A stretch of DNA of 64,000 nt from positions 3,034,501 to 3,098,500 of the forward strand of contig NZ_CP108356.1 in assembly GCF_036237315.1 (NCBI RefSeq). Reading direction: 5' to 3'. The notes beneath the pieces were generated by a model. The model made no database searches, was not told the DNA's origin, and saw nothing but the letters and a program-made list of their open reading frames with translations. Shown here in pieces: positions 1 through 14,190 of this stretch. The stretch comes from Streptomyces sp. NBC_01351. GTDB taxonomy: Bacteria; Actinomycetota; Actinomycetes; Streptomycetales; Streptomycetaceae. Numbering within the stretch: position 1 is the first letter of the stretch; every line of letters begins with the position of its first letter. The position numbers and the translations under genes were made by a program.

Positions 1-387
1 GAGGTCGTCGGGGCACCAGCGCAGGGCGGCGCCGGTCGTGCCCGCCAGCAGCCCGGGCGCGGTGGCCAGGGGCAGCAGCACCGGTATCCCGGCGGCGCGG
101 TAGACGGGCAGGGCGGTGCGGGCGCCGGCGCTGTTGAAGTGGCCGATGACCAGGGCGTAGCGGCCGTCGGCGACGACGGCCTCCGCGACGGAGCGGGACA
201 CGGCGGTCTCGCCCCGGTCGTCGTGGAGGTCCCAGTCGACGGAGTCGTGGGCGGCGGCCCCCCGTTCGAGGAGTTCGCCCCAGGCGGCGCGCGGCCCGGA
301 GAAGGGTCCGACGACGGCGGCGCGGACGCCGGGGCCGGCCGTGCCCACCGCGTCCGCGGGGCCGGCGGGGCCGTTCCGGTCAGCCAC
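1..387 (-). CDS. Receptor-like ligand-binding protein (Peripla_BP_6 fold), partial
   Basis: The gene runs leftward off the window, so only the N-terminal 129 codons are visible. The GTG at 387-385 is chosen because it overlaps the end of the MetRS-like gene by 8 nt. After a short Gly/Ala/Pro-rich leader the sequence has GPFSGP (residues 27-32), VIGHFNS (80-86) and AGIPVLLPLAT (99-109). This is the LivJ/AmiC-type type I periplasmic-binding fold: beta strand, ligand-loop serine, then a PVY..AGIPV stretch. There is no signal peptide or lipobox, which is odd for a transport binding protein and fits a cytoplasmic sensor or enzyme-like use of the fold. It is the most distal visible gene of the operon. 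The specific role is unknown. Confidence 0.6.
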   Translation of the reverse strand, partial: MADRNGPAGPADAVGTAGPGVRAAVVGPFSGPRAAWGELLERGAAAHDSVDWDLHDDRGETAVSRSVAEAVVADGRYALVIGHFNSAGARTALPVYRAAGIPVLLPLATAPGLLAGTTGAALRWCPDDL

Positions 388-1999
388 TGAACACCCCCTC
401 GGCGGGAACGGCGAGCGGGGTGCCCGCGGCCGGTCCGCGCAGGGCGGCGGCGTCGATGCGGCGGCCGGCGGGGACGCCGAGCAGGCCGGCGAGCCGGTCC
501 GCGCCGTGGGGCAGCACGGGGGCCGCCCAGGCCGCGAGGGCGGACGCGACGGCGAGCTGGGCGGCCAGCGCACGGCGGTGGGGCGCGGCGCCTTCGGGAC
601 GGTCGCGCTCGTGGCTGTGGACGTGGCCGAAGTCGACGGCGAGGGAAACCGTCTCGTCGAGCAGGGCGACGGCGCGGCGGGCGTCGAAGCCGGCCGCCGA
701 GTAGGCCTCGCGCAGTTCGTCGACCGTACGGGTGAGCCGGGCGTGCAGCCGCTCCCAGGCCGGGCCCTGGGGCTCTTCGGCGGGGGCGGTCCCGGCGCAG
801 TCCTCGGCCACGGCGGTGAACAGGCGCCGCAGCCAGCCGTCCCAGTGCTCGGCGAGCCGGGCGCGGCTGCGTTCGAGGTCGGCCGGGGTGAAGCTGGTCT
901 GGCGGCCGTTGGGCCGGTCGGACAGGACGTGGTGGCGCAGTACGTCGGCGGGGGTGCGGGCGAGTTCCTCGTGGGCCCAGATGGCGTGCCTGCGGCTGGT
1001 GGAGAACTTGAGGCCCTCCAGCCGGTAGAACTCGTTGACGACGAAGGCGCTCGGCAGCGGCGCGCCGGCCGGGCCCTGGGGGCTGTCGGGGCCGGAGGCG
1101 TCGGCGAGGAAGGCCGCCGGGAAGAGCAGCGCGTGGAAGTAGCCGTTGTCGAAGCCGAAGAACTGGACGGGCGCCGGGGCGGGCTCCCCGGTCGCGCACT
1201 TCTGCCACTCCATCAGGTAACCGGGGGCCATTTCGAACCAGACGTAGACCCGCTGGTCCGTGAAGCCGGGCACGGTGACCGGGACGCCCCATTCCGAGGG
1301 GTGGCTGACGGCGATCTCGGGCAGACCCTCGGCCCGCATGCGTTCGCACAGGGCCCGCAGGTGCGGGGGCATGTCCACGCGCTGCCAGAAGGCGTCGAGC
1401 TGCTCGCCGAAGGGGGCGAGGGGGAAGTAGAGCCGCTCGCAGTCGCGCAGTTCGGCGGGGGCGCCGCAGGCGGTGCACTCGGGGTCGGTGAGGTCCGCGC
1501 AGTCGTTCGGGCGGCCGCACGGCTCGCAGGCGTTGCCGTTGGAGCCGGAACCGCAGTGCGGGCAGTCGCCCTTGAGGTAGGCCTCGTAGAGCCAGCGCTC
1601 GCAGCCGGTGCAGTAGGGCAGCGGGCGGGTGCGGGCGACGATGTGGCCCTGGTCGTACAGGCGCTGGAAGAAGTCCTGGACGTGGGCGGTGTATTCGGGG
1701 TCGCGGCGGGGACGGACGATCGCGTCGAACTCGGCGCCGGCCTGGCGCCAGACGGATTCGATGGACTCCCCGTACCGGTCGGCGATCTCCTCGCCCTTGA
1801 GCCCGCCGTCCTTCAGCCCGCGCACGGGAACGTAGCTCTGGTGGTCGTCGAGACCGGTGGTGTAGCGGACGTCGGCGCCGTCGGCCACGCGGAAGCGGCG
1901 CAGGACGTCGCCGGCGAGGTAGGGGCCGGCCATGTGGCCGATGTGCAGGTCGCCGTTGGGCGTCGGGGGCGTGGCGGTGATCCACTCGGTGCGGCTCAC
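380..1999 (-). CDS. Methionyl-tRNA synthetase-like protein, probable ligase half of a hydrazine synthetase
   Basis: A 539-residue class I synthetase homologue. HIGH is at residues 19-22. Two zinc knuckles follow, with CxxC pairs at 130-133, 146-149, 158-161 and 175-178. The second signature reads KFSTS (331-335) rather than KMSKS. The C-terminal helical region has no N-x-Y-I...P-W anticodon motif; the equivalent stretch (about 455-468) is VDFGHVHSHERDRP. The GTG start overlaps the cupin stop as GTGA. A MetRS-like domain joined to a cupin is known from Spb40 (s56-p1) and Tri28 (triacsin), which form the N-N bond between N6-hydroxylysine and glycine after activating glycine. I infer the same role here, with amino-acid adenylate chemistry rather than tRNA charging. 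A self-resistant MetRS paralogue is the main alternative. Confidence 0.75.
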   Translation of the reverse strand: MSRTEWITATPPTPNGDLHIGHMAGPYLAGDVLRRFRVADGADVRYTTGLDDHQSYVPVRGLKDGGLKGEEIADRYGESIESVWRQAGAEFDAIVRPRRDPEYTAHVQDFFQRLYDQGHIVARTRPLPYCTGCERWLYEAYLKGDCPHCGSGSNGNACEPCGRPNDCADLTDPECTACGAPAELRDCERLYFPLAPFGEQLDAFWQRVDMPPHLRALCERMRAEGLPEIAVSHPSEWGVPVTVPGFTDQRVYVWFEMAPGYLMEWQKCATGEPAPAPVQFFGFDNGYFHALLFPAAFLADASGPDSPQGPAGAPLPSAFVVNEFYRLEGLKFSTSRRHAIWAHEELARTPADVLRHHVLSDRPNGRQTSFTPADLERSRARLAEHWDGWLRRLFTAVAEDCAGTAPAEEPQGPAWERLHARLTRTVDELREAYSAAGFDARRAVALLDETVSLAVDFGHVHSHERDRPEGAAPHRRALAAQLAVASALAAWAAPVLPHGADRLAGLLGVPAGRRIDAAALRGPAAGTPLAVPAEGVFSG

Positions 2000-2355
2000 G
2001 CGGCGGCCGCCTTGGGCTCGTGCAGCGGCCAGTAGACGGAGACCCAGCTGAGGACGGCGTCCGTCGGGTTGGTGACGACGTGCTCCCGGTTCCGGGGCAG
2101 GACGACCAGGTCACCGGCGGCGCAGGGCTCGTCCTCCTCGCCGGCCAGGGACACCGTGCCCGAACCGGAGAGGATGATCATGATCTCGTCCTGGTCGTGG
2201 CAGTCCGGGTCCGAGCTGCCCCCGGCGGGCAGGAAGCAGGCCATGGCACCGACCGGCGGCTCCTCGGCGGCGCCCTGCCACGGGATGAGTCGCTGGCACG
2301 CCATGCCGAATTCCCGGGCGGCAGAGCCCTCGTCGATGCGTATCTTGGTGACCAC
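1996..2355 (-). CDS. Small single-domain cupin, probable partner half of a hydrazine synthetase
   Basis: A 119-residue protein made of one cupin barrel. Motif 1 is DCHDQDE (residues 51-57), giving His53 and Glu57 as likely metal ligands with a degenerate HxH. Motif 2 is GDLVVLPRNREHVVTN (81-96), giving His92. A GTG start at 2355 is preceded by an AAAGGAAC ribosome site. Its stop overlaps the GTG of the MetRS-like gene, so the two are translationally coupled in the same order, cupin then MetRS, as in the fused enzymes Spb40 and Tri28. In those, the cupin domain is thought to rearrange the ester of N6-hydroxylysine and glycine into the hydrazine. On its own it could be any small cupin; the coupling to a MetRS-like gene is what gives the call weight. 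Confidence 0.75.
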   Translation of the reverse strand: MVTKIRIDEGSAAREFGMACQRLIPWQGAAEEPPVGAMACFLPAGGSSDPDCHDQDEIMIILSGSGTVSLAGEEDEPCAAGDLVVLPRNREHVVTNPTDAVLSWVSVYWPLHEPKAAAA

Positions 2356-2432: not shown

Positions 2433-3332
2433 TCAGCTGTCGCGCAGTTCCAACGTGCAGCACTTGGCTCCGCCGCCGGCCTTCATCAGTTCGGGGAGGT
2501 CGATGCCGATCGGCTCGAACCCCCGGCCCTTCAGCTCGCCGATGAGGTGGGTGGCGGCGCTGGAGAGCAGGACGTGCCGGCCGTCGGAGAAGGCGTTGAG
2601 GCCGAAGACCTCGGCGTCCTCGGCCGTGGCCAGGACGGCGTCGGGGTACAGCTCCCGCAGCACCGCCCGGCTGCCCGGGGAGAAGGCCTCCGGGTAGTAC
2701 ATGACCTCGTCGTCGGAGAGCACGGCGAGGGCGGTGTCCAGGTGGTAGAACCGCGGGTCCACGAGGGTCAGCCCGGTGACGGGGACCCCGAAGAACTCCT
2801 GGGCCTCCGCGTGGGAGCGCTGGTCGGTGCGGAACCCGGTGCCGGCCAGCAGGCGGCGGCCGACGAGGAGGTAGTCGCCCTCGCCCTCGTTGATGTGCTC
2901 GGGCCACAGGAGGTCCGTGTAGCCCTGCTCCCGGAACCAGTCGAGGTAGCCGGGGCCCTCCGCCGTGCGCTGCGCGTGCCGGAACCGCGCGCCGAGGACC
3001 TTGCCGTCCACCACCGTGGCCCCGTTCGCGGCGAACACCATGTCGGGCAGGCCCGGCTCGGGCCGGATCAGCTCGACGGTGTGCCCGAGCTCGCGGTACA
3101 GGTCGTACAGCCGCTCCCACTGGAGCTGGGCGCTGCCCTGGTCCGTGGGCTTCTCGGGCTCCATCCACGGGTTGATGGAGTAGTTGACGTCGAAGTGGCG
3201 GGGCGGGCACATCAGCAGCCGCCTGGGCGTCGCCACCCGCTGCGGCACGGCCTCGGCGGTCGGGGTTCCGGCGGGCCGGGTTCCGGCGGGTCCGCTTCCG
3301 GCAGCCGGGACGGTCGACTCGGCGTAGGGCAT
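2433..3332 (-). CDS. Amidinotransferase/dimethylarginine-hydrolase family enzyme (arginine-modifying)
   Basis: A 299-residue penta-beta-propeller guanidine-group hydrolase. Visible signatures are LPDMVFAANGA near residue 100, the INEGEGDYLL acidic motif, the catalytic-His motif FYHLDTALAVL near 195, and a C-terminal GGGAKCCTLEL with the nucleophilic Cys around 291-292. The first 35 residues are a Pro/Ala-rich extension. The sequence resembles the mycobacterial Rv2323c type, annotated as a dimethylargininase and encoded beside ornithine aminotransferase. Likely chemistry is hydrolysis of arginine or a substituted arginine to citrulline or ornithine, which could supply a building block. It lies 77 nt upstream of the cupin and 130 nt downstream of the short ATP-grasp gene, wider gaps than elsewhere in the operon. 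The actual substrate is not evident. Confidence 0.75.
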   Translation of the reverse strand: MPYAESTVPAAGSGPAGTRPAGTPTAEAVPQRVATPRRLLMCPPRHFDVNYSINPWMEPEKPTDQGSAQLQWERLYDLYRELGHTVELIRPEPGLPDMVFAANGATVVDGKVLGARFRHAQRTAEGPGYLDWFREQGYTDLLWPEHINEGEGDYLLVGRRLLAGTGFRTDQRSHAEAQEFFGVPVTGLTLVDPRFYHLDTALAVLSDDEVMYYPEAFSPGSRAVLRELYPDAVLATAEDAEVFGLNAFSDGRHVLLSSAATHLIGELKGRGFEPIGIDLPELMKAGGGAKCCTLELRDS

Positions 3333-3462: not shown

Positions 3463-4329
3463 TCAGTCGGCGACGACGAAGACTCCGGCCCGATTGCGTT
3501 CCTGGAGGTACTCCAGGTCGGCGAGGAGTACGGCCTGATCGGCGTGGCGCAGCAGGACCGCCGCGCCGCCGCCCTCGCCGACGGTGCGCGCCACGGTGTC
3601 CCCGGGCGCGGGCATGAACAGGTCTCCGCTGTACGAGGTCAGCCGCCGGACCTCGTCGAGACCGCTGAACCCGGTCAGCGTGCCGCCGCGGCGGACGATG
3701 AAGGCGTAGTCGGCGACGAACCCGTCCGGCTCCTGCGCCGCGTCCCCGCTCTGGCCGTCGATGCCCAGCAGGGAGCACAGCCTCGGCAGCGGCTCCCCGG
3801 CGATCCGGCGGGCGTACTTGACGACCTTGACCCCGTTGCCGCTGAGCACCGCCTCGAAGCAGACGGGCCCGCTGCGCACACCGGCCCCGGTGACCAGCAC
3901 CTGGAGCGCCTGCTCCAGCAGCCGCACCTCGGCCGACCCGGGCAGGGCGTTGACCACCGCGGTGAGCAGCGAGCGCGGGCCCTCCTCCAGGCTGTGGCAC
4001 CGCCAGGTGTCGGTGAGACGGAGCTCGCCGTCCACGACGACGCCGTTGGCGAAGTACGGGGTGCCGGGCACGTACGCGTGGACGAGCACCCGCCCGCCGG
4101 CGCGCCACAGCCCGGCCAGCTCCTCCTGCGGGACGGGCCGCCCCGGCCGGGAGAAGAGCGCCGAGCCCGTGTTCGCGGTGAACTCGGGGCGCAGGACGGT
4201 GGTGGCGGCGGACTGCCCGGCCAGGTAACGCTCCAAGTGGGCCGGGCTGGAGAACACGGCCGTGTCGAAGGCGAGTTCCGGAGCGGCGGCGAGCACCGTC
4301 TCGTACTGGACGACCTTGCTGTCGCTCAT
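3463..4329 (-). CDS. Truncated, probably inactive ATP-grasp-like protein
   Basis: A 288-residue protein. Its ATG at 4329 overlaps the preceding ATP-grasp stop as ATGA; the reading frame is open further upstream, but only this start fits. It aligns with the C-terminal two thirds of the 421-residue ATP-grasp encoded at 5588-6853: HAYVPGTPY matches the QEYLRGTEY strand, TDTWR matches TDIWR, and CFEAVLSGNG(V)KVVKYARRIAG matches the metal-binding strand. The pre-ATP-grasp domain and the ATP-lysine region are absent. Glu159 is kept, but the second metal ligand Glu is Lys171, and the Glu of the earlier strand is Ala85. I infer a pseudo-enzyme that partners one of the two full ATP-grasp ligases. Its reading frame is clean, so it does not look like a decaying fragment. 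Confidence 0.7.
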   Translation of the reverse strand: MSDSKVVQYETVLAAAPELAFDTAVFSSPAHLERYLAGQSAATTVLRPEFTANTGSALFSRPGRPVPQEELAGLWRAGGRVLVHAYVPGTPYFANGVVVDGELRLTDTWRCHSLEEGPRSLLTAVVNALPGSAEVRLLEQALQVLVTGAGVRSGPVCFEAVLSGNGVKVVKYARRIAGEPLPRLCSLLGIDGQSGDAAQEPDGFVADYAFIVRRGGTLTGFSGLDEVRRLTSYSGDLFMPAPGDTVARTVGEGGGAAVLLRHADQAVLLADLEYLQERNRAGVFVVAD

Positions 4330-5591
4330 GCCGCCACCACCGGTTCCGCGCGGACCTCGAAGGCGGCCGCCGTCCGGCGGATCGCCTCCTCCACGGCGGC
4401 GGTGGACCCGCCGCGGAAGCGGAACCTGCCCCCCACATGCTCGTAGTACGAATCGGCCTCGGGCAGTACCTCGCCCGGGGTCAGCAGCGCCTCCGCGTAC
4501 GGCTGCCCGGGCAGCGGGCCGGCCATCGGGGTGACCTCGGTGATCCGGCAGGGCCGGCTCTCCGGTGCCGGGACCAGGAGCCAGCCGCCGGTCTCCGCGG
4601 CGGTGGCGGGGTCCGACTCCGGCTCCGACTCCGGCTCCGGCTCCTCGCGGACGGGCAGCCCCAGCTGGTTGCGGAACGCCGTCTCCATCAGGTCCCTGCC
4701 GTGCACCTCGCGCCACAGCAGGGGGATCTCCGCCCCGCCGACGCGGGCGCCGACCTCCAGGAAGGCGCAGGTGCGGGTGGCCGGGTCGAAGAAGACCTCC
4801 AGGTGGAAGACGGTCGGCCGGTCCGTCAGCGCGCGCAGCACGCGCAGGGCGAAGGCGGCGATGGGCCGCTGGATCCGCGGGTCGTCCTCCTCGACCGAGC
4901 CGAGCACCCCGCCGCCGCGGAACTCCAGGCAGTTGTTCAGGTAGCGCGAGGCCCGCACCACCGTCACCCGGCTCCCGTCGAAGGAGCCGTCCACGTGGTA
5001 GATCCCGTGCGGGTTGAACGCCTGGACCATGCGCGGCTCGCCGTGGAAAGCCGTCTCGGCCACGTCGTCCGGACCGTCCATGCGGACGACTCCGGCGCTG
5101 GAACTGCCGATCAGCGGCTTGACGATCACCGGCCAGCCGGCCCGCCCGGCGAACTCCAGGACCGCGCGGGCGTCGGGCGCCGCCGCGAAGTCGGGTACCT
5201 CCACGCCTGCGGCGGCCACCTCGCTCGCCATCCGGAACTTGTCCCGGAACGGCAGCAGTTGCTCCTCGCCGGGGCCGGGCACGCCCCACTCGGCCCGCAG
5301 CGCCGCGCCGACCAGGAGGTCGTCCTCCTTGAGGGCGACGATGCGGTCCGGGGCCCCGTGGCGCTCGGCCAGCGCCGCGACGGCCTTGCGGACCTCGGCG
5401 AGGTCGTCCGTGGCCTCGACGACCACGACTTCGGTGGCGGTCGGGGGGATCGAGGCGAGACCCACCTGGGTGCTGACGTAGGTGACGCGGTGGGCCCGGT
5501 GGTCCAGGTAGCGGGCGAAGTCCGCGTACTGCTCGCGCCAGCGGTTGACGACGACGACGTGCGAGGACGGGGTCAGTTCCGTGCTGTTCAT
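4326..5591 (-). CDS. ATP-grasp ligase
   Basis: A 421-residue ATP-grasp enzyme of the amino-acid/dipeptide ligase type. It shows an N-terminal Rossmann-like pre-grasp domain, VIVKPLIGSSSAG with the ATP-binding Lys158, HLEVFFD with Glu265, and FLEVGARVGG with Glu279 and Arg283 for Mg-ATP. A Glu/Pro-rich insert near residues 305-325 (EPEPESEPESDP) is encoded by a short GC-rich tandem repeat around 4612-4648. Such enzymes activate a carboxylate as acyl phosphate and join it to an amine. The gene overlaps both neighbours by 4 nt, so the three ATP-grasp genes are translated as a coupled set. Substrates are unknown; in context it should form an amide or hydrazide bond of the product. Confidence 0.85.
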   Translation of the reverse strand: MNSTELTPSSHVVVVNRWREQYADFARYLDHRAHRVTYVSTQVGLASIPPTATEVVVVEATDDLAEVRKAVAALAERHGAPDRIVALKEDDLLVGAALRAEWGVPGPGEEQLLPFRDKFRMASEVAAAGVEVPDFAAAPDARAVLEFAGRAGWPVIVKPLIGSSSAGVVRMDGPDDVAETAFHGEPRMVQAFNPHGIYHVDGSFDGSRVTVVRASRYLNNCLEFRGGGVLGSVEEDDPRIQRPIAAFALRVLRALTDRPTVFHLEVFFDPATRTCAFLEVGARVGGAEIPLLWREVHGRDLMETAFRNQLGLPVREEPEPESEPESDPATAAETGGWLLVPAPESRPCRITEVTPMAGPLPGQPYAEALLTPGEVLPEADSYYEHVGGRFRFRGGSTAAVEEAIRRTAAAFEVRAEPVVAA

Positions 5592-6853
5592 GCCGTCCCG
5601 TCCTCCGGCGCGAGCGCGTAGAAGTCGGGGCCGTCCAGGTAGCGGATGGTGTTGGCGTCGCGGAGCACCGTCTCCTCCGTGTCGTGGAGCAGCGTGACCA
5701 TCAGCGGGTAGCCCATGTCGTTGACGGTGCGCTCGATGCGGGCGCCGGGCGCCAGGGCCCCGCGGAGGTCGTTGAAGCTCTCCAGCGCCTTCACCTCGTC
5801 CAGCCGCGGGAAACCGGCGAAGACGCCCTCGACCGGCGACACCAGCGTCACCGAGGCCATGAACGGGCCCTTCGGGTAGTCCTTGCCGAGGCGCTCCTCG
5901 AACCGCGGGGGGTCGAGGTAGGCGGCGGCGGACAGGTCCAGCTGCGATTCGCCCAGGGTCACCTTGGCGTAGTGGGGGAGGTTGCCGCCGCAGATGCGGG
6001 CGCCCATCTCCACGAGGACGGGACCGGCGTTGGTCATCTTGACCTCGACGTGCGCGGGCCCGTGCTGGATCCCGAGCGCGTCCAGGACCTGGGCGGCGTA
6101 CTCGGCCAGCCGGTCCTGGACCTCGCCCCGGCGCTGCATCAGGTACGCGGCGTCGACGAGGTCGATGACCCCGTTCGCGGAGATGCGGGTGGTGCGCCAG
6201 ATGTCGGTGACGTGGTGGCGGCCGCCGAGGCTGACCGTGTTGACCATGTACTCGGTGCCGCGCAGGTACTCCTGGGCGACGACACCCGTGTTGACGTCGG
6301 AGAACACGTTGGTGGCGCCCAGCAGCTTGCGGAAGGCCGCCGCGGACTCCTCGGGGGTGTCGCAGAAGAAGATCCCGTCGCCGGCGGCGCTGCGCAGCGG
6401 CTTGACGACGATGCGGCCGCCGTGGGTGCGGTGCCAGTCGGCGAGCTCCTCGGCGGTGGAGGGCAGGAGCTGGCGGGCGCCGGCCAGGCCGGCCGCCTTC
6501 ACGGTCTCGATCTGGACGTACTTGTCGCGGCGGGCCTCGCTGAACTCCACCCCGTTGGTGGGCAGGCCCAGTTCGGTGCTGAGCGCGTCCGCGAACTCGA
6601 CGCCCACCTCGCCGCCGGCGACGACGGCCACCGGATCGTAGGCGGCGACGGCCCGTGCCGTGGCGGCCAGGTCCCCGCCGTGGACGATGTTGTCCACGTA
6701 GTCGTCCAGGCTGAACGAGCCCTCGTAGACCTTCGGGACCTCGCGGGTGCTCTGGACCCGTACGAGGGTCGCGCCCGCCTTCAGGAACTCGTCGGCGAGC
6801 AGTTTGGTCGGCGCGTACGAATCGACGATGACGACGTGCTGTGGAGCGGACAT
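5588..6853 (-). CDS. ATP-grasp ligase (BacD/carnosine-synthase-like)
   Basis: A 421-residue ATP-grasp enzyme with a complete active site: RIVVKPLRSAAGDG with Lys151, QEYLRGTEY with Glu199, AHVEVKMTNAGP with Glu270, and VLVEMGARICGG with Glu282 and Arg286. The C-terminal domain (about 310-421) has the extra beta subdomain typical of L-amino-acid ligases such as BacD. It begins 18 nt after the MFS stop, behind a triple GTAGAGAG-type ribosome-site repeat. Expected reaction: ATP-dependent ligation of two amino acids or of an amino acid to a hydrazine or amine. Together with the next gene it could add two building blocks in turn. Confidence 0.85.
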   Translation of the reverse strand: MSAPQHVVIVDSYAPTKLLADEFLKAGATLVRVQSTREVPKVYEGSFSLDDYVDNIVHGGDLAATARAVAAYDPVAVVAGGEVGVEFADALSTELGLPTNGVEFSEARRDKYVQIETVKAAGLAGARQLLPSTAEELADWHRTHGGRIVVKPLRSAAGDGIFFCDTPEESAAAFRKLLGATNVFSDVNTGVVAQEYLRGTEYMVNTVSLGGRHHVTDIWRTTRISANGVIDLVDAAYLMQRRGEVQDRLAEYAAQVLDALGIQHGPAHVEVKMTNAGPVLVEMGARICGGNLPHYAKVTLGESQLDLSAAAYLDPPRFEERLGKDYPKGPFMASVTLVSPVEGVFAGFPRLDEVKALESFNDLRGALAPGARIERTVNDMGYPLMVTLLHDTEETVLRDANTIRYLDGPDFYALAPEDGTA

Positions 6854-6871: not shown

Positions 6872-8134
6872 CTACGTCTCTTGGGTGACGGGCTGAAGGG
6901 ACGGCGCGGCCGGTGCGGCCGGCTCGGTCTCCTGCTGCGGGGCCGGTTCGGCGCGGCCCCGGCCGCGCAGGACCACCGCGGCGAACAGCGCGACCGCGGC
7001 GCCCAGGACGCCGGTGGCGGCGAAGCCGGCCACGGGGCCGGCCGCGTCGAAGGCGGCTCCGGCCACGGGGGCGCCCAGCGCGCTGCCCGCGCTGATCGCG
7101 GCCCCGTAGATGCTCATGACCGTGGCCCGGTTGCCCTTCCCGGACAGTTCGCTGGCCGCGGTCGCCGTCGCGGCGAAGACCGGCGAGTACAGGACGGCGG
7201 CGGGGATGACGGCGAGTGCCAGCAGCCACCACTCGCCGACCAGGCCCAGGGGCAGTACGGACAGGCTCAGCAGGGCGGTCGCCAGCGGTACGGGCAGACT
7301 GCGCGGCAGGGCCCCGAAGGCCAGGCCGCCGACCACCGAGCAGATGCCGGACAGGAGCAGGACGAGGCTCGTCCACTCGATCTGGCCCTCGGCGCGCAGG
7401 GTGGCCACGATCGCCACCTCGTAGCCCGCGATGATCGCGCCGGAGGCGAGGGTCGCCGCGAAGACGGCGATCAGGGGAAGGTTCAGCCGGCCGAGCCCGG
7501 AGCGCTTGGCCCCGGTGAGGTTCTCCTGCCCCTGCTGATCCTGCTGCTCCTCTTCCTTCTCGGTCTGCGGGTTGCGCACCGCCAGGGCCAGGTTGGTGCC
7601 CAGCAGGAGGGCGCCGAGCGCGAGCAGCGCGAGCTCCGTGGACACCTGGGTGGCCGCCGCCACGGCGAGCGCCGGGCCCGCCATGTACGACAGGGAGGTC
7701 AGGGTGGAGTCCAGCGCGAACGCGGTGTGCCGCTGCTCCTGCGGGACCAGCCCCGCGATGGCCAGCCGGATCACGGTGGAGCCCGGGACCAGGACGAGGC
7801 CCGACAGCAGGGCGCCGGCCACGAAGACGGGGAAGGACATCAGCGGGGCCAGGCCCCAGAACGCCCCCTGGCCGACGACCGCGACCAGCAGCATGGCGCG
7901 CAGACCGCGCCGGTCGATGAACCGCCCCTGGAACGGTGCGCCGATGGTCACTCCGGCCGTCCACGCTCCGGCGACCAGCCCCGCCTGCCCGTACCCCTGC
8001 CCGAGGCCCAGGGCCGTGTGCAGGGTCAGGACGATGGGGATCGCCACGACCGGCAGCTTGGCGAGCAGCCCGAGCAGCAGTACGGAACGGAACCCGGGTA
8101 CGGCCAGCACCTGGCGGTACTTCTCAGGCCCCAT
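6872..8134 (-). CDS. MFS exporter
   Basis: A 420-residue major facilitator protein with about twelve hydrophobic segments in two halves joined by a charged loop (about residues 190-215, rich in Glu/Gln and Lys). The open frame extends 46 codons further, but the ATG at 8134 (MGPEKYRQV...) leads directly into the first membrane helix and overlaps the upstream SDR stop by only 11 nt, so it is preferred. The protein ends in a Pro/Gln/Glu-rich cytoplasmic tail. Being inside the biosynthetic operon, it most likely exports the product and may give self-protection. The substrate cannot be read from the sequence. Confidence 0.85.
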   Translation of the reverse strand: MGPEKYRQVLAVPGFRSVLLLGLLAKLPVVAIPIVLTLHTALGLGQGYGQAGLVAGAWTAGVTIGAPFQGRFIDRRGLRAMLLVAVVGQGAFWGLAPLMSFPVFVAGALLSGLVLVPGSTVIRLAIAGLVPQEQRHTAFALDSTLTSLSYMAGPALAVAAATQVSTELALLALGALLLGTNLALAVRNPQTEKEEEQQDQQGQENLTGAKRSGLGRLNLPLIAVFAATLASGAIIAGYEVAIVATLRAEGQIEWTSLVLLLSGICSVVGGLAFGALPRSLPVPLATALLSLSVLPLGLVGEWWLLALAVIPAAVLYSPVFAATATAASELSGKGNRATVMSIYGAAISAGSALGAPVAGAAFDAAGPVAGFAATGVLGAAVALFAAVVLRGRGRAEPAPQQETEPAAPAAPSLQPVTQET

Positions 8135-8876
8135 CGGGCTGCCCTCCGCCGCCGGCCACCGGCTCGAAGCCGAAGGTACGGATGAAGCAGTCCCGCGGCT
8201 GATTGACGGCGAACAGGATGCAGTCGAGCAGCGACTGGGCGGTGAGCCCGGTGCCCGGACCGCGGTCGGCACCGTCCCACTCGGGGCCGAGCGGGTCCAC
8301 GTTCCGGAAGTCCGGCGGGTACAGCGAGATCACCCGCACCCCCTCGGAGCGCAGCCGCTGGGACATGATGTCGGCGAAGTTCGCCTGGGCGCCCTTCGCC
8401 GCGTAGAACGCGGGGCTGGCGCTGCTGGAGTCGCTGCGGCCGGAGGCCACCAGGGAGACGATGTTGACGATGTCGGGGCGCTGCGAGGCGCGCAGCAGCG
8501 GCAGGAAGTGCTTGGTCATCAGCACCGTGCCGACGCCGGCGGAGGTGACCGTCGCCATGATCTCCTCGTCGCTGACCGACCCCAGGTCGAAGCCGTCCAG
8601 CCAGCCCGCACCGTTGTTGAGCAGGATGTCCACCCGGTCGGTGACCCGGCCCACCTGTTCGGCGAAAGCGCGTACCGACTCCGGGTCGCCGACGTCGCAG
8701 GCGAACGCGTGGACCTTGGTGTGGCCGAGGGCCAGGATCTCGTCCCGGGTCGCCTCGGCGGCCTTCAGGTTGCGGGCCGACAGGAAGACCTCCGCCCCCA
8801 GGGCGGCGAGGCGGATCGCCAGCGTCCGGCCGAAGTCGCGGGCCGCGCCCGTGACCACGACGCTCGTGTTCTTCAT
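8124..8876 (-). CDS. Short-chain dehydrogenase/reductase
   Basis: A 250-residue Rossmann-fold oxidoreductase. It has an N-terminal cofactor motif TGAARDFG (residues 9-16), an ARN stretch typical of NADP preference, NNGAGW, a catalytic Ser region IVSLVASGRS and YAAK with the catalytic Tyr/Lys pair. The ATG at 8876 is taken because it starts directly at the conserved VVVTGA strand and lies 14 nt after the next SDR. The C-terminal part is less typical and may form substrate specificity. Likely reduces a ketone or oxidises an alcohol on the keto-acid or sugar-like unit made by the aldolase-type enzymes of this operon. Confidence 0.85.
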   Translation of the reverse strand: MKNTSVVVTGAARDFGRTLAIRLAALGAEVFLSARNLKAAEATRDEILALGHTKVHAFACDVGDPESVRAFAEQVGRVTDRVDILLNNGAGWLDGFDLGSVSDEEIMATVTSAGVGTVLMTKHFLPLLRASQRPDIVNIVSLVASGRSDSSSASPAFYAAKGAQANFADIMSQRLRSEGVRVISLYPPDFRNVDPLGPEWDGADRGPGTGLTAQSLLDCILFAVNQPRDCFIRTFGFEPVAGGGGQPDGA

Positions 8877-8890
8877 AGCGTTTGCGTTCC

Positions 8891-9589
8891 TTAGCTCAAG
8901 ATGAGGGTGTCTTCCGAGCGCTCGGCGGGCAGCCGGTGGATCAGCGCGTCGGCGGCGGTCCGCGCCCACTCGTCGGGGGTGGGGTAGGTGTGGTGCTCGT
9001 CCGGGAGGCAGGTCGCGAGCATGTCGGTGTCGATGCCGCCGCCGGGGTCTGCGGCCACCACCCGTACGCCCGGCCGCAGCCGGGCCGCTTCCTCGGCGAG
9101 CGCCCGGGTGAGGCCCTCGACGGCGAACTTGCTCGCGGTGTAGGTGGCGAGCATCGCCCGGGGGTTGCGGCCCCAGCCTGAGGAGACGGTGACGAGCGCG
9201 CCGCCTTCGGCGATACGGGGGACGAAGGCGCGGGCCATCGCGTACACGCCGCCCACGTTCACCCGCATCACCGCGTCGAACTCCTCCGGGGGGACCTCCC
9301 ACAGCGGCGCCGGCGCGTTGATGGCCCCCGCGTTGGCGACGACCAGGCCCGGCGCGCCGAGGTCCTCCTGGACCTGCCGCGCCCAGTCCTCGACCCGGGC
9401 GGCGTCGGTGACGTCCACCCGGTCGAATCGGTGTCCGCCGCCCAGCTCGGCCCTCAGCGCGTGGAGGGCCGCGGTGTCGCGGCCGCAGCCGGCCACCGGG
9501 TAGCCGAGCCCGGCGAAGCGCCGGGCCAGGGCCCGGCCCAGGCCCTTGGTCACGCCGGAGACCACCACCGGCAGTCTGTCGTCCGTCAC
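8891..9589 (-). CDS. Short-chain dehydrogenase/reductase
   Basis: A 232-residue classical SDR with SGVTKGLG (residues 11-18) as the cofactor loop, VANAG, a catalytic Ser in VTVSSGWG and YTASK as the active Tyr-Lys. It ends TAA at 8891, 14 nt before the other SDR gene, and its start overlaps the HAD stop by 4 nt. The two SDRs are clearly different in sequence (different cofactor loops and C-termini), so they are probably two separate redox steps rather than a recent duplication. Substrate unknown. Confidence 0.85.
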   Translation of the reverse strand: MTDDRLPVVVSGVTKGLGRALARRFAGLGYPVAGCGRDTAALHALRAELGGGHRFDRVDVTDAARVEDWARQVQEDLGAPGLVVANAGAINAPAPLWEVPPEEFDAVMRVNVGGVYAMARAFVPRIAEGGALVTVSSGWGRNPRAMLATYTASKFAVEGLTRALAEEAARLRPGVRVVAADPGGGIDTDMLATCLPDEHHTYPTPDEWARTAADALIHRLPAERSEDTLILS

Positions 9590-10335
9590 GGTCGTCCTCC
9601 TGCCGTCGCCAACTCACGTACGGGGCCCCGCGGGTCGAGGTCGGTGACGAACCGCGCCGCCCGCCCGGAGCGGTCGTGCAGCACCTGCTCGGGCGGGAAG
9701 AACCCGTAGCGGGTGACCAGGACGAAGTCCGTTCCGGCCGCGTCCGCCGCCAGGACGTCCTGCCGGGAGTCGCCCACCAGCACGGCGTCCGCGGGGGCGG
9801 CGCCGCTGTACTCGAGGATCTGCCCCAGCCGGCGGGACTTGGGCTCCTCGCCGCCCAGGACCGAGTCGAAGGCGCCGAGGAGTCCGGCCGCGTCGAGCAC
9901 ACCGACCGCCTCGGCGGTGAGGGTGCCCGTCGCCACGTGCAGCGGGAGGCCGCGTGCGGACAGCTCGGCGATCAGCTCCCCGGCGTGCGCGCACAGCGGC
10001 GCCCGCCGGTACCGCTGCGCGAGGAGGGCGGCGTAGGCCCCGGCGTAGCGGTCGTGGAACTCCTGCGGGTCCGGCCCCGCCAGGCCGCGCCGCGCACCGG
10101 CGGCGTGGAACGCGGCGAAGTGGTCCCGGCGGGAGCGGCCGAAGGTCCGGCGGAACTCCGCCGTGAACTCCTCGACCAGCTCCGGCGGGTACTGCGCGAA
10201 CACCTCGCGGACGCAGTCGACCTTCAGCTCGTTGGAGTCCACGATCACTCCGTCGAGGTCGAAGACGACGACCGGATGCCCGGCCAGTGCGTCCACCAGC
10301 CGCACTGCGTCCGCCGGCCGCTCAGACGCGGGCAT
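9586..10335 (-). CDS. HAD-superfamily phosphatase (phosphoglycolate-phosphatase-like)
   Basis: A 249-residue haloacid-dehalogenase-type hydrolase with all four motifs: VFDLDGVIVDS (nucleophile and acid/base Asp, about residues 23-33), the helical cap, ATGTLTAE (motif II), the EEPKS lysine (motif III) and VLVGDSRQDVLAA (motif IV). It overlaps the aldolase-like gene by 14 nt and the SDR by 4 nt. Expected role is removal of a phosphate from a small metabolite, such as a phosphorylated keto acid or sugar, in building-block synthesis. The beta-phosphoglucomutase subgroup is possible but would need a different cap. Confidence 0.8.
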   Translation of the reverse strand: MPASERPADAVRLVDALAGHPVVVFDLDGVIVDSNELKVDCVREVFAQYPPELVEEFTAEFRRTFGRSRRDHFAAFHAAGARRGLAGPDPQEFHDRYAGAYAALLAQRYRRAPLCAHAGELIAELSARGLPLHVATGTLTAEAVGVLDAAGLLGAFDSVLGGEEPKSRRLGQILEYSGAAPADAVLVGDSRQDVLAADAAGTDFVLVTRYGFFPPEQVLHDRSGRAARFVTDLDPRGPVRELATAGGRP

Positions 10336-11356
10336 GGGCCAGCGCCTCGTCGAACACGGCCGCCGAGAACCCGGAGGCCGATGCCTGCGCCAGGAAGCCG
10401 AGCGCGCTCAGCTTCTCGTCGGCCCCCAGTCCGGTGTTCTCCTCGATGCGCTGGACGTACGTGGGGTGCACGTCCCGCATGCCGGCGATGGCGTAGAGCC
10501 CGCTCGGACCCCAGCGGTACTTGTCCATCAGGGGGTGGAAGTGCCGCACGACCAGGTCCATCAGCGGCTGGAGCCGCTCCGGCCCGCCGCCGAGCACGGC
10601 GAGCAGCTGCTCGGTCCGCGTGTTGCCCGCTCCGCGCCCCATGCCGTGGACGGTGCCGTCGAGCCAGGTGGCCCCGGCCTCGGCGGCGGTCACGGTGTTG
10701 TGGAGGGCGAAGCCCTGGTTGTCGTGGGCGTGGATGCCGACGGCGGCCTGCTGTCCGTCCTGGAACCGGCGGACCAGTTCGGCCGCGCGGTGCGGGCGCA
10801 GCGAGCCCAGGGAGTCGGCGACGTAGACCGCCTCCAGCGGGCCCGCGGCGACCACGTCGGCCAGGCAGGAGGTGACTTCGTCGTCGGTGGCGAGGTCGAT
10901 CTGCATCAGGTTGAGGCACACGGCGTAGCCGGCCTCGCGCAGAGAGGCGATCGCCCCGGTCACGGCCGCCACCTTGTCGTAGCGGACCGCGACGCGGACG
11001 ATGTGGACCGGCAGCGACCCTGGTTCCAGCTTCCGCTTCAGCTCGCGGCCGACTTCGTCGGCGGGCAGCGCGGCGAGGTCGGTGCCGTCCACCATCACCG
11101 CGAAGCGCAGCCGGTGACCGGCGGGCAGGGCGTCCGCGAGGTTCGGGGTCAGCCCCTCGGGGAGCTGCCCGTACGGGCCGAAGCCGCCCTCCTCGAAACG
11201 GACGTACCCCAGCTCCACCACGTCGATGCCGAGTCCGGGACAGGCGGCCAGGTACTCCTCCACCAGGGCGGTGTCGAAGTTCCAGTTGGTGTAGTAACCG
11301 CCGTCGCGCAGCGTGCAGTCGAGGACCGTCAGGCCGTTGGGGTCCACGGTCGTCAC
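10322..11356 (-). CDS. DRE-TIM metallolyase family aldolase (4-hydroxy-2-oxovalerate aldolase-like)
   Basis: A 344-residue TIM-barrel enzyme. Near the N-terminus it has LDCTLRDGG with Arg17 and Asp18, the catalytic signature of the DRE-TIM family. Further on come VGIHAHDNQG with the metal-binding His pair, DGTVHGMGRGAGN and a helical C-terminal region. The GTG start overlaps the mutarotase-like stop as GTGA. Family members include 4-hydroxy-2-oxovalerate aldolase, HMG-CoA lyase and homocitrate synthase; the motif layout is closest to the aldolases. It probably makes or cleaves a C-C bond between pyruvate or a related enolate and an aldehyde. With the neighbouring DapA-like lyase it suggests a hydroxy-keto-acid unit. 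Confidence 0.8.
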   Translation of the reverse strand: MTTVDPNGLTVLDCTLRDGGYYTNWNFDTALVEEYLAACPGLGIDVVELGYVRFEEGGFGPYGQLPEGLTPNLADALPAGHRLRFAVMVDGTDLAALPADEVGRELKRKLEPGSLPVHIVRVAVRYDKVAAVTGAIASLREAGYAVCLNLMQIDLATDDEVTSCLADVVAAGPLEAVYVADSLGSLRPHRAAELVRRFQDGQQAAVGIHAHDNQGFALHNTVTAAEAGATWLDGTVHGMGRGAGNTRTEQLLAVLGGGPERLQPLMDLVVRHFHPLMDKYRWGPSGLYAIAGMRDVHPTYVQRIEENTGLGADEKLSALGFLAQASASGFSAAVFDEALAHARV

Positions 11357-11739
11357 TTCCCGTCGAGGTCGGGGAGGGTGTTCGTGAAGTCGACGTGGTG
11401 GATGCGCTGCATCTCGGCCCAGTTGAGCTTGGCGTCGTGGTTCTCGTGGCGGACGAGCAGGCCGCCGTCGAGGTGCATCATGTCGTCCCACGCCTGGACG
11501 GCCGGGTGCAGGTCGTTGGCGCGCAGGAAGTCGTAGGTCGGGTCGAAGTGGTCCTCGGCCTCGACGTACATGAAGAGGGTCAGCGGCTCGATGAAGAAGA
11601 TCTGGAGCTTGCGGACACCGATGACGTCCAGCGCGCCGCCGGGGGCGACGATCTCCGGGATGGCCTCGCGGTGCAGGGCGATGTACTTCTCGGCTGCGGC
11701 GGCGTCCTTGAGACGGATGGTGAAGGCGTGGTTCTTCAT
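11353..11739 (-). CDS. L-rhamnose mutarotase-like protein (RhaM/DUF718 family)
   Basis: A 128-residue dimeric alpha/beta-barrel protein. The N-terminus (FTIRLKDAAAAEKY...LHREAIPEI) has the RhaM-type layout in which a His acts as acid/base, followed by KLQIFFIEPLTLFMYVEAEDHF and a C-terminal aromatic and charged stretch around MQRIHHVDF. The family interconverts sugar anomers in rhamnose catabolism. There are no rhamnose genes here, so the enzyme is likely recruited for another aldose-like or hemiacetal intermediate, or works as a small cyclase or epimerase. It overlaps both neighbours by 4 nt. Confidence 0.75.
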   Translation of the reverse strand: MKNHAFTIRLKDAAAAEKYIALHREAIPEIVAPGGALDVIGVRKLQIFFIEPLTLFMYVEAEDHFDPTYDFLRANDLHPAVQAWDDMMHLDGGLLVRHENHDAKLNWAEMQRIHHVDFTNTLPDLDGK

Positions 11740-12653
11740 CGGGAAATCTCCTTGGTGAGGGTGAGAAGGTTCTGATAGGTGGCGTGGACTTCGGTCCACG
11801 TCTCCTCGTCGAGAATGTGCCGGCTCGGGCCGCGCACATGGGTGTTCTTGACGATTCCGCGCTCCTTGAGGAAGCGCTTCGCAATCGCGAGGTAGTAATC
11901 GGTGCTGTTCATCATGTGGCACATGAGGTACGAGAGCTGGTGGCCGATGCGCTCGGCCTCGGCCCGTCGGCCCTCTTCGAGAAGGCGCCACAGAACGACG
12001 ACGATTTCCGCGATCTCCGTGGCGGGAATAGTGCCCGCCAGGCCTCGCCGGTGGCAGTCGAGGAGCATCATTCCGCCGTCGCCCTCGAAGATGCGGGCCC
12101 GGCCGCCGGTGGCGTCGCGCAGCTCGCTGACGCGCGGCGGGGTGGGCTGCGCCTCCGGCTTGAACAGCACGCGCTCCTCGCCGTAGGTCTCCAGCAAGCG
12201 CACCTGGGCGTCGATGCTCAGAGGCGTCTTGGCCAGGCTCTTCGCGTGGTGGATGATCACCGGGAGGTCGACGGACTCGATGACCCGGCTGTAGTAGTCG
12301 ACCATCCCCTCGTCGCCGAGCGGGATGGTCGCCGGGTGCATGACCAGGAGGGCGTCCACGCCGGCTTCCTGCGCGTGGCGGGAGTACGCGACGGCGGCCT
12401 CGGGGGATTCCGCGCCGGTGCTCATCACCGAGATGCCGCGGCCCTGTGCGGCCTTGGCCGAGAGTTCGGCGACGCGCAGCCGCTCGTCGTGGGTCAGGCG
12501 CAGGACCTCCGATATCTGGCCCACGACGAATCCGTCACAACCGACGTCGAACATGTGGTCCGCCTGGGCGAGGAAATCCTCCTCGTCCAGGGCCCCGGTA
12601 TCCGTAAAGGGCATGAGGACGACGGGCAGAACGCCTTTTACCTGCTTTGCCAT
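11736..12653 (-). CDS. DapA-family class I aldolase/lyase
   Basis: A 305-residue TIM-barrel enzyme of the dihydrodipicolinate synthase/N-acetylneuraminate lyase family. The Schiff-base lysine is Lys165 in VLFKPEAQP. The loop that is normally G-T-T-G-E reads GQISE (residues 45-49), and the tyrosine of the usual YNVP motif is replaced by His (IIHHAK, 133-138), so it is not a true lysine-pathway DapA. Members with altered loops condense pyruvate with other aldehydes or cleave 2-keto-3-deoxy acids. It lies 48 nt downstream of the oxidase and overlaps the mutarotase-like gene by 4 nt. Confidence 0.8.
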   Translation of the reverse strand: MAKQVKGVLPVVLMPFTDTGALDEEDFLAQADHMFDVGCDGFVVGQISEVLRLTHDERLRVAELSAKAAQGRGISVMSTGAESPEAAVAYSRHAQEAGVDALLVMHPATIPLGDEGMVDYYSRVIESVDLPVIIHHAKSLAKTPLSIDAQVRLLETYGEERVLFKPEAQPTPPRVSELRDATGGRARIFEGDGGMMLLDCHRRGLAGTIPATEIAEIVVVLWRLLEEGRRAEAERIGHQLSYLMCHMMNSTDYYLAIAKRFLKERGIVKNTHVRGPSRHILDEETWTEVHATYQNLLTLTKEISR

Positions 12654-12701: not shown

Positions 12702-13805
12702 TCAGTCGCCGGTTTGGACGCCGGTTTGGTCGCCGGTGACGAGGCGGGCGATTTCGCCGGCGGCCCAGGGCGCCATCTTGAAACCCCCGCCGTTGAAGCC
12801 GGTGGCGAGGAGAATTCCCGTTTCGCCGGGGACCGGGGCGACGCGCGCGGAGGGGTCCGAGGCGTAGCACTCGGCGGCGCGGAGGGTGCCGAGGGAAGCG
12901 CTCTCCGCGGCCCACCGGAAGCGGGAGCTTCCGGCGGCCACGGCCCGCCGGGTCTGGTCCGGGTCGGCGGGCAGTCCCCCTGCCCGGCCGTCCACGCGCT
13001 GCCCGGTGGGGTGGCCGAGCAGCATGCCTCCGGATTCCGCATCCGGGCGGCCGTTGACGTCGTACACGTCGTCCATGTAGGCGGGGTGGTCCTTCACCGT
13101 GCCTTCGGGCAGGCGCAGTTCGACCTGGATCGCCTGCGCCCACAGGTCGTGCGGGACCCCCCAGGAGTCGAGCAGCCGGGGGGTGTCGGCGCCCGCGGCG
13201 AGGACGACGCGCTCCGCCGCGATGACGCCGGACCGGGTGCGGATTCCCCGCAACCGGCCTCCGGTACGCAGGAGTTCCCCGGCCTCGACCCCTTCCAGGA
13301 CCCGGCCGCCCTTGGCTCGTCCGGCGGCGAGGTAGGCGCGGGTGATGTCGATCGGGTCCGCGTACCCCGCCCGGGGCTCCCACACCGCGCCGTCGACGGG
13401 CGCGTTCAGCAGGTGTCCGAACCTGAGGTCCGCCTCCGTGGACTCCAGCCACTCCATGGGGGCCTCGCCGGCGGCCTCCACCACGGCCGCCCGGGCGTGC
13501 GCGAGCCAGCTCGGGTGGGGAACGTAGAGGAACCCGCTCTCGACGAAGGGGACTTCGATGCCGGTCCGGGCGGCGAAGTCCCGGAAGTACCGCCAGCCGA
13601 CCGTGGCCCGCGCCGTGAGCACGGGGTCGTCGTGGTAGCAGCGCACGATGCCGCCGCTCCACGCGGTGGTCCCCAGCCCCGCCCGGCCGCGCTCGACGAG
13701 GAGCACGGAGACGCCCCGGTCGGCGAGCTCGTGGAACACGGCCGCTCCGACGACCCCGCCGCCGATCACCACCACGTCCGCCGCGGCCAGGGGAGTTTCA
13801 GTCAC
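12702..13805 (-). CDS. FAD-dependent amino-acid-oxidase-type oxidoreductase (DAO family)
   Basis: A 367-residue flavoprotein, first gene of the operon. It has ADVVVIGGGVVGAAV (the FAD dinucleotide-binding GxGxxG), VLLVERG at the end of beta-2, a central substrate domain, VVLAAGADT and a C-terminal ATGFNGGGFKMAP FAD motif. The GTG at 13805 is preferred for its GAGGTG ribosome site; a GTG at 13814 is also possible. The DAO family includes glycine and sarcosine oxidases. In triacsin biosynthesis an enzyme of this class (Tri27) oxidatively splits N6-(carboxymethylamino)lysine to hydrazinoacetic acid. With a cupin/MetRS pair in the same operon I infer the same step here. Confidence 0.8.
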   Translation of the reverse strand: MTETPLAAADVVVIGGGVVGAAVFHELADRGVSVLLVERGRAGLGTTAWSGGIVRCYHDDPVLTARATVGWRYFRDFAARTGIEVPFVESGFLYVPHPSWLAHARAAVVEAAGEAPMEWLESTEADLRFGHLLNAPVDGAVWEPRAGYADPIDITRAYLAAGRAKGGRVLEGVEAGELLRTGGRLRGIRTRSGVIAAERVVLAAGADTPRLLDSWGVPHDLWAQAIQVELRLPEGTVKDHPAYMDDVYDVNGRPDAESGGMLLGHPTGQRVDGRAGGLPADPDQTRRAVAAGSSRFRWAAESASLGTLRAAECYASDPSARVAPVPGETGILLATGFNGGGFKMAPWAAGEIARLVTGDQTGVQTGD

Positions 13806-14190
13806 GGGGACCACACCTCACACCATCGACCTCGGTGACACGCATGATCGGCTCTCCCCCCGCCCCGGGCCGGAACCCGGTCGTGCTCGACAGTGCAGCA
13901 GAACGCGCGGACGCGGGCCCGACCACCACGGAAGGCCCCGCCGATGATCACCGCGTTCACGACACGAGGAACCTAAGACGGCCGCTCACACCCCGTCGAG
14001 CAGCACCGACCTGCTCCGTCAGGTCCCCGCCGTCACCGCTCCGCGGTCCGGCCGGCCGGGTACGCGGAGCCCGAGAAGCGGGGTCCGCTCCCGGCGGCCG
14101 AACATGCGGCAGGGGCCGGACTCGACAGAGTCCGACCCCTACTGACCTGCGGCGCGACCCCGCACAGCGCTCTGACCCGGTGGCCGACCG
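13806..14190. other. Intergenic region upstream of the biosynthetic operon
   Basis: There is no convincing coding frame in these 385 bases. It must hold the promoter of the leftward operon, but I see no clear -35/-10 pair; AACCTAAG at 13969-13976 (TAGGTT on the minus strand) is the only weak -10 candidate. The right part holds the hairpin terminator of the leftward lipoprotein gene. No recognisable regulator gene or binding site is present, so control may come from outside the window. Confidence 0.5.
14111..14140 (-). terminator. Hairpin terminator of the lipoprotein gene
   Basis: AGGGGCCGGACTC and GAGTCCGACCCCT form a 13-bp stem with one mismatch around a 4-nt loop, 50 nt beyond the leftward stop. 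It is followed on the plus strand by CTGACCTGC, a tag shared with the hairpins at 16747 and 17539. Confidence 0.7.

Follow-up and report, generated by a model that had tools for sequence, protein, structure and literature searches.

The window, a 64,000-nucleotide stretch of contig NZ_CP108356.1 (C1) of Streptomyces sp. NBC_01351, opens on two genes that concern us here. A stand-alone zinc-type cupin is encoded at 1996..2355 on the minus strand (119 aa, GTG start; Cupin_2, 48.2 bits, Pfam), and a stand-alone protein resembling methionyl-tRNA synthetase (MetRS) at 380..1999 on the same strand (539 aa, GTG start; tRNA-synt_1g, 230 bits, Pfam). The cupin gene lies first (5'), and the two frames have 4 bp in common. 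A preliminary description of this DNA had reported just such a single-domain cupin gene with its stop overlapping a MetRS-like start, and the frames lie where it placed them. The GC content by codon position (0.70/0.51/0.93 for the cupin, 0.75/0.54/0.95 for the MetRS-like gene) matches that of genuine Streptomyces genes. Further, the counterparts in Streptomyces sp. ISL-87 are 86% (cupin) and 88% (MetRS-like) identical; thus, the frames are not products of chance. The 4-bp overlap probably couples the expression of the two genes. A scan for consensus promoters found none, and such a scan is uninformative in Streptomyces.

The pair is embedded in a directon of 17 genes, which include two FAD oxidases, an aldolase, ATP-grasp ligases and a second dimethylargininase; the cluster as a whole spans C1:3030036-3048314. 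To its left, a 747-aa protein joins a binding-protein-like domain to an FAD-dependent oxidoreductase (C1:3032644-3034887, minus strand); only its N-terminal part falls in the window (1..387). Beyond the window's left edge lie an amino-acid permease (minus strand) and then, in the same directon, a lysine/ornithine N-hydroxylase (L003:15536-16879), one of four full-length members of its Pfam family in the genome. Each of the four junctions from the cupin through the N-hydroxylase is an overlap of 4-8 bp. To the right of the cupin, no intergenic gap exceeds 130 bp as far as the second FAD oxidase. The genes there, all on the minus strand, encode the dimethylargininase-family protein (2433..3332; NCBIfam dimethylargininase, 444.9 bits, cut-off 300), whose other copy in the genome (C1:5898710) is 64% identical; a 288-aa protein with a weak, partial ATP-grasp-family match (3463..4329; NF005543, 37.2 bits on the shorter reading 3463-4242, under cut-off; no Pfam match); an ATP-grasp-like ligase (4326..5591; NCBIfam ATP-grasp enzyme matches, under cut-off); an ATP-grasp ligase (5588..6853; ATP-grasp_4, 49 bits; NF005543, 349 bits, cut-off 302); an MFS transporter (6872..8134; MFS_1, 106.6 bits); an SDR-family oxidoreductase (8124..8876) and a second SDR-like protein that matches the same stretches of the related loci (8891..9589); a HAD-family hydrolase (9586..10335; HAD_2, 72.9 bits); an HMGL-like aldolase/lyase (10322..11356; HMGL-like, 89 bits); a small L-rhamnose-mutarotase-like protein (11353..11739; rhaM, 48 bits); a DapA-family aldolase-like protein (11736..12653; TIGR00674, 83 bits, under cut-off); and the second FAD-dependent oxidoreductase, of the DAO family (12702..13814; DAO, 146.9 bits).

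The binding-protein label on the 747-aa fusion is a weak one: Peripla_BP_6 is under cut-off, and the similarity to a Pantoea binding protein is 34% over 114 residues. The model of the fusion is moderate (pLDDT 71, pTM 0.50), and the structure matches listed for it are confined to the oxidase half. By eye, the sequence shows no apparent signal peptide, and the protein may therefore act intracellularly. In Streptomyces, the binding-protein-like domain and the FAD oxidase form one chain; in Pantoea (L041) and in 15 of the 16 Pseudomonas loci (L016-L029, L032, L034), the domain has its own frame close to the oxidase. One of the DAO-family oxidases of the directon has a sarcosine/glycine-oxidase fold, and the other resembles, under cut-off, models for N-methyl-tryptophan oxidase and glycine oxidase. 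Cleavage of the hydrazine is the role of FAD oxidases of the Spb39/AzsM type in this family; neither of the two here groups with the AzsM-like branch.

By fold and by sequence alike, the best match of the MetRS-like protein is the MetRS domain of PyrN, a comparison that the preliminary description had recommended. PDB 9l8v is the nearest solved structure to the predicted fold (521 residues aligned, rmsd 2.4, 34% identity), and in a phmmer search the same domain comes top at 266.6 bits, with the near-identical 9vq4 at 266.4 and the next entry at 217.9. In a tree whose 35 MetRS-like rows comprise cupin-associated proteins and cupin-less paralogues, the Spb40 and Tri28 sequences being left out, all 35 split from the four housekeeping-type rows with a support of 100/100; the MetRS-like partner of the Rhodococcus protein RHS1 sits on a very long branch. 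The adenylation motifs are intact, with HIGH present as LHIGHM and the KMSKS-like motif as KFSTSR.

The cupin retains the metal site expected of this group. The zinc ligands D63, H65, E69 and H103 of RHS1 (PDB 5UQP) align with D51, H53, E57 and H92 of the window protein, in the same D-x-H-x3-E...H pattern. Each alanine variant of these ligands in RHS1 was inactive, and the glutamate, E69/E56 in that paper, is central to the proposed mechanism (passages of PMC8664883). Among 13 aligned cupins, E57 and H92 are invariant, the position of D51 holds H in five rows, and that of H53 holds Q in two Pseudomonas rows. Counting against the assignment, the best PDB sequence matches of the window cupin are plu4264 (46.8 bits) and 4rd7 (42.5), with RHS1 lower at 25.9; along its entire length of 122 residues, the cupin of a Rhodococcus plasmid locus (L038) matches 5UQP with 272.6 bits. 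Taking together the proximity to PyrN, the tree and the cupin ligands, the placement of both proteins in the cupin/MetRS hydrazine synthetase group stands, and we conclude that the pair is very likely a two-component hydrazine synthetase of this known family.

Some indication of the substrate comes from ten positions that we take, from the numbering of E. coli MetRS, to line the amino-acid pocket. In the window protein these positions are T P T W M A Y N H F. The fused protein of the azaserine-like S. lavendulae locus (L039) differs at three of the ten, with T P T W M S F N H Y; a fused protein from Mesorhizobium has T P T W M A F N H Y, and a Rhodococcus protein that uses glutamate has S N T A L A Y N R F. 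At two telling positions, alignment places A and R in PyrN and W254 and H289 in the window protein. With L039 serving as a proxy for AzsN, its own use of glycine being presumed from azaserine-like gene content, the window pocket resembles the glycine type rather than the glutamate type. Judged by these residues, a small amino acid, glycine first, would be our guess over glutamate; because the pocket is AzsN-like, N6-hydroxylysine plus glycine is a reasonable guess for the substrate pair.

The arrangement recurs in other genomes. In 27 of 32 named loci (11/11 from Streptomyces and 16/16 from Pseudomonas), a cupin and an N-hydroxylase lie nearby, with the cupin and MetRS-like protein in separate frames. 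No cupin or N-hydroxylase was detected at the other five (archaeal and other bacterial, 23-31% identical), which resemble ordinary class I synthetases. A MetRS-like match at E <= 1e-60 occurs in 71 of 295 Streptomyces genomes, which together contain 84 such matches. In a separate set of plasmid records, 336 have a match, and seven of their regions were examined. A larger set, consisting of the N-hydroxylase, cupin, MetRS-like protein, binding-protein-oxidase, second oxidase, DapA, RhaM, HMGL and at least one SDR, recurs in L037, L078, L079, L080 and L081 by gene calls from our own script; HAD was called in all of these but L078. At E <= 1e-60, five of the 295 Streptomyces genomes have the HMGL-like protein, at six places in all, each no more than about 9 kb from such a MetRS-like gene. 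Since all six places in this sample are beside the cassette, the aldolase is probably a dedicated enzyme of an N-N pathway. Of the seven MetRS-like matches at 65% identity or above, six are accompanied by the HMGL-like gene; the match in genome G026 is the exception. One related locus, L084, counts against the assignment: the cupin and KFSTS are present, and no N-hydroxylase was detected in 19.5 kb. The MetRS-like gene of Streptomyces sp. NBC_01483 (L037:16001-17589) is in two overlapping frames, which may reflect a sequencing error or a broken gene.

A second lineage of MetRS-like proteins is found in the genus. Of the 83 matches outside this genome, 29 Streptomyces loci were listed, and KFSTS is retained in 12/12 of those with a cupin and in 0/17 of those with none detected (none within 1.5 kb, nine cupin queries, E <= 0.05); of the 54 further matches, two (L079 and L083) were examined. 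The 17 paralogues (L049-L062, L064, L065, L072) are at 45-50% identity, except for L072 at 37%. They have lost KFSTS and the pocket tryptophan and kept the zinc cysteines, and HIGH is retained in all but L072. Neither a cupin nor an N-hydroxylase was detected in 16-19.5 kb stretches around three of them (L073, L074, L075) and around the further paralogue L083. The neighbors in these four stretches include SDR, PrpF-like, Asn-synthase-like, PIG-L deacetylase and GT4 glycosyltransferase genes. Passages of a 2010 study (PMC2922099) state the association with a cupin and an N-hydroxylase as exceptionless; the cupin-less paralogues run against that statement.

Could the MetRS-like gene instead encode a second, perhaps inhibitor-resistant, housekeeping methionyl-tRNA synthetase, with the cupin an unrelated neighbor? 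Its overall fold is indeed that of a MetRS, and HIGH, KFSTS and eight cysteines of the zinc type are all present. However, its scores are far too low for the two best MetRS equivalog models (244 bits against a cut-off of 587, and 222.8 against 336) and it misses the remaining MetRS models too, it is 29% identical to the genome's other MetRS (L002) and differs from it at five of the ten pocket positions, and PyrN is its nearest relative. Further, a cupin adjoins the MetRS-like gene in 9/9 named loci at 67% identity or above and in 5/5 sampled loci of the genus at 64% or above. We therefore consider this explanation extremely improbable. The existence of a related lineage without KFSTS indicates that decay occurs in this family, and it raises the question of whether the window pair is itself a decaying or inactive copy. 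Both frames are intact, though, with every motif residue present, and the cassette is also found in L005, which shares the window's gene order across its whole stretch (RhaM to N-hydroxylase), and in other loci; decay is thus very unlikely.

A more serious competitor is that the pair belongs to the family and acts on other substrates; N6-hydroxylysine might, for instance, be combined with alanine or serine. Family members use Gly, Ala, Ser, Glu and Tyr (passages of PMC8664883 and PMC11705231), three of the ten pocket residues are unlike those of the AzsN-like row, and the dimethylargininase of the cluster might supply ornithine. On the other hand, W254 and H289 are unlike the A and R of the glutamate-type PyrN and Rhodococcus proteins, and the best PDB match of the N-hydroxylase is the lysine enzyme MbtG (522.6 bits), ahead of KtzI (418.3). 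We regard a different substrate pair as a real possibility, short of probable, and retain glycine and N6-hydroxylysine as the working assignment.

The preliminary description took the characterized enzymes to be fusions. Neither this view nor the novelty of a split pair survives a comparison with the literature: stand-alone pairs appear in passages of PMC2922099, PMC8664883 and PMC11705231. The split architecture is an ordinary, already known one, with separate genes described in 2010 and N-N activity in 2021. The 2010 passages report stand-alone cupin genes, typically 5' of a MetRS paralogue and accompanied by a lysine monooxygenase, as in the window; some of the neighborhoods also hold ATP-grasp, Asn-synthetase-like, dimethylargininase and binding-protein genes. 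They predicted peptide ligation for these neighborhoods, and the N-N chemistry came later. According to passages of PMC8664883, RHS1 of Rhodococcus jostii RHA1 and its MetRS-like partner are active as stand-alone proteins, as are other gene pairs. That system, like the window, has a stand-alone cupin, a stand-alone MetRS-like protein and a lysine N-hydroxylase, whereas its pocket is of the glutamate type, identities to the window proteins are low (25% for the cupin, about 30% for the MetRS-like protein), and in L038 the N-hydroxylase gene stands between the other two. Fused enzymes are described in passages of PMC10445470 and PMC13274452, and the gene order of the window is the order of their domains (as given in part of PMC8664883), as had been claimed. 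PyrN shares this order and, unlike the window pair, is a single chain that uses glutamate. Enzymes of the AzsN/Spb40/Tri28 type, for which L039 is the proxy, have a near-identical pocket and an FAD oxidase and N-hydroxylase nearby; they differ in being fused (AzsN also to a carrier domain) and in having an FAD oxidase from another branch. Among the many more separate pairs tabulated in passages of PMC11705231 is Afn8/Afn9 of albofungin (abf orfDEF in passages of PMC9469721), which likewise combines separate MetRS-like and cupin genes with a lysine hydroxylase and an FAD oxidoreductase. That cluster is a polyketide one with an Asn-synthase-like hydrazine transferase, whereas the window has ATP-grasp ligases.

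From the genes, their residues and predicted fold, gene order and conservation, we infer the following catalytic steps, substrates and product type. The N-hydroxylase and FAD oxidases share the cassette with the pair. The N-hydroxylase would supply N6-hydroxy-L-lysine. The MetRS-like protein would use ATP to activate a small amino acid, with glycine the best guess, and place it on the hydroxylamine oxygen as an unstable O-aminoacyl hydroxylamine ester, which the bound zinc and Glu57 of the cupin would rearrange to form the N-N bond. One or both FAD oxidases might then cleave a C-N bond, and the ATP-grasp ligases would probably join the hydrazine fragment to further units. The early steps are modeled on PyrN and RHS1, for which passages of PMC8664883 describe an N6-hydroxylysine substrate, ATP-dependent ester formation and rearrangement assisted by zinc and glutamate. 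The half-life of the ester was estimated at less than 10 minutes in that work; coupled expression of two separate chains therefore makes sense. Truncated PyrN domains were active when mixed (passages of PMC8664883), and thus separate chains need no special device. For the later steps, Spb39 and Apy10 are reported to cleave different C-N bonds (passages of PMC11705231).

The pair marks a recurring Streptomyces cluster to which no product could be matched, and it is a target for the discovery of a new N-N natural product. The suggestion that the cluster is undescribed is plausible in that its gene content matched no known product in the open-licence literature; this absence is a weak one, as few subscription papers were covered. 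Passages of PMC9469721 name the cupin/tRNA-synthetase/FAD-oxidoreductase trio, a lysine monooxygenase and an Asn synthetase, and do not name DapA, mutarotase or aldolase genes. The directon is less usual than the split pair, with its tightly linked aldolase and its oxidase fused to a binding-protein-like domain, and parts of the directon recur in other Streptomyces. Three related clusters have Asn-synthase-like genes that recall the hydrazine transferase Afn14 (L037:20346-22196, L079:4520-6370, L078:10814-12586), assigned by Pfam for the L079 protein and by BLAST clustering with it for the other two. The gene for the binding-protein-oxidase is one gene away from them in L037 and L079; in L078, the Asn-synthase-like gene is at another place in the cluster. 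No protein close to that of L079 was found in the window's genome (best match 31%, C1:292574). Likewise, for the PNPOx-like gene found 3' of the N-hydroxylase in L005-L012, this genome offers no more than a 45% match, located elsewhere (C1:7052688) and with one internal stop.

The two DAO-family oxidases, the Asn-synthase-like genes in L037, L078 and L079, and the aldolase linkage offer hints, and only hints, of a more elaborate route. The oxidases might cut the N-N intermediate first on one side and then on the other, lysine and glycine, and so release free hydrazine. The ATP-grasp ligases here, and the Asn-synthase-like enzymes in related clusters, would then couple this hydrazine to a carboxylic acid whose synthesis involves the HMGL-like aldolase. 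We consider this scheme unlikely; if true, it would represent a hydrazine-transfer pathway outside the albofungin polyketides. The MetRS-like protein, with its small pocket, and the separate cupin lend themselves to use in hydrazine biocatalysis. The second dimethylargininase, for its part, may serve in precursor supply or self-protection. Relatives of this protein are also found near MetRS-like/cupin genes in L005, L013, L014, L037, L044/L078, L080 and L082.
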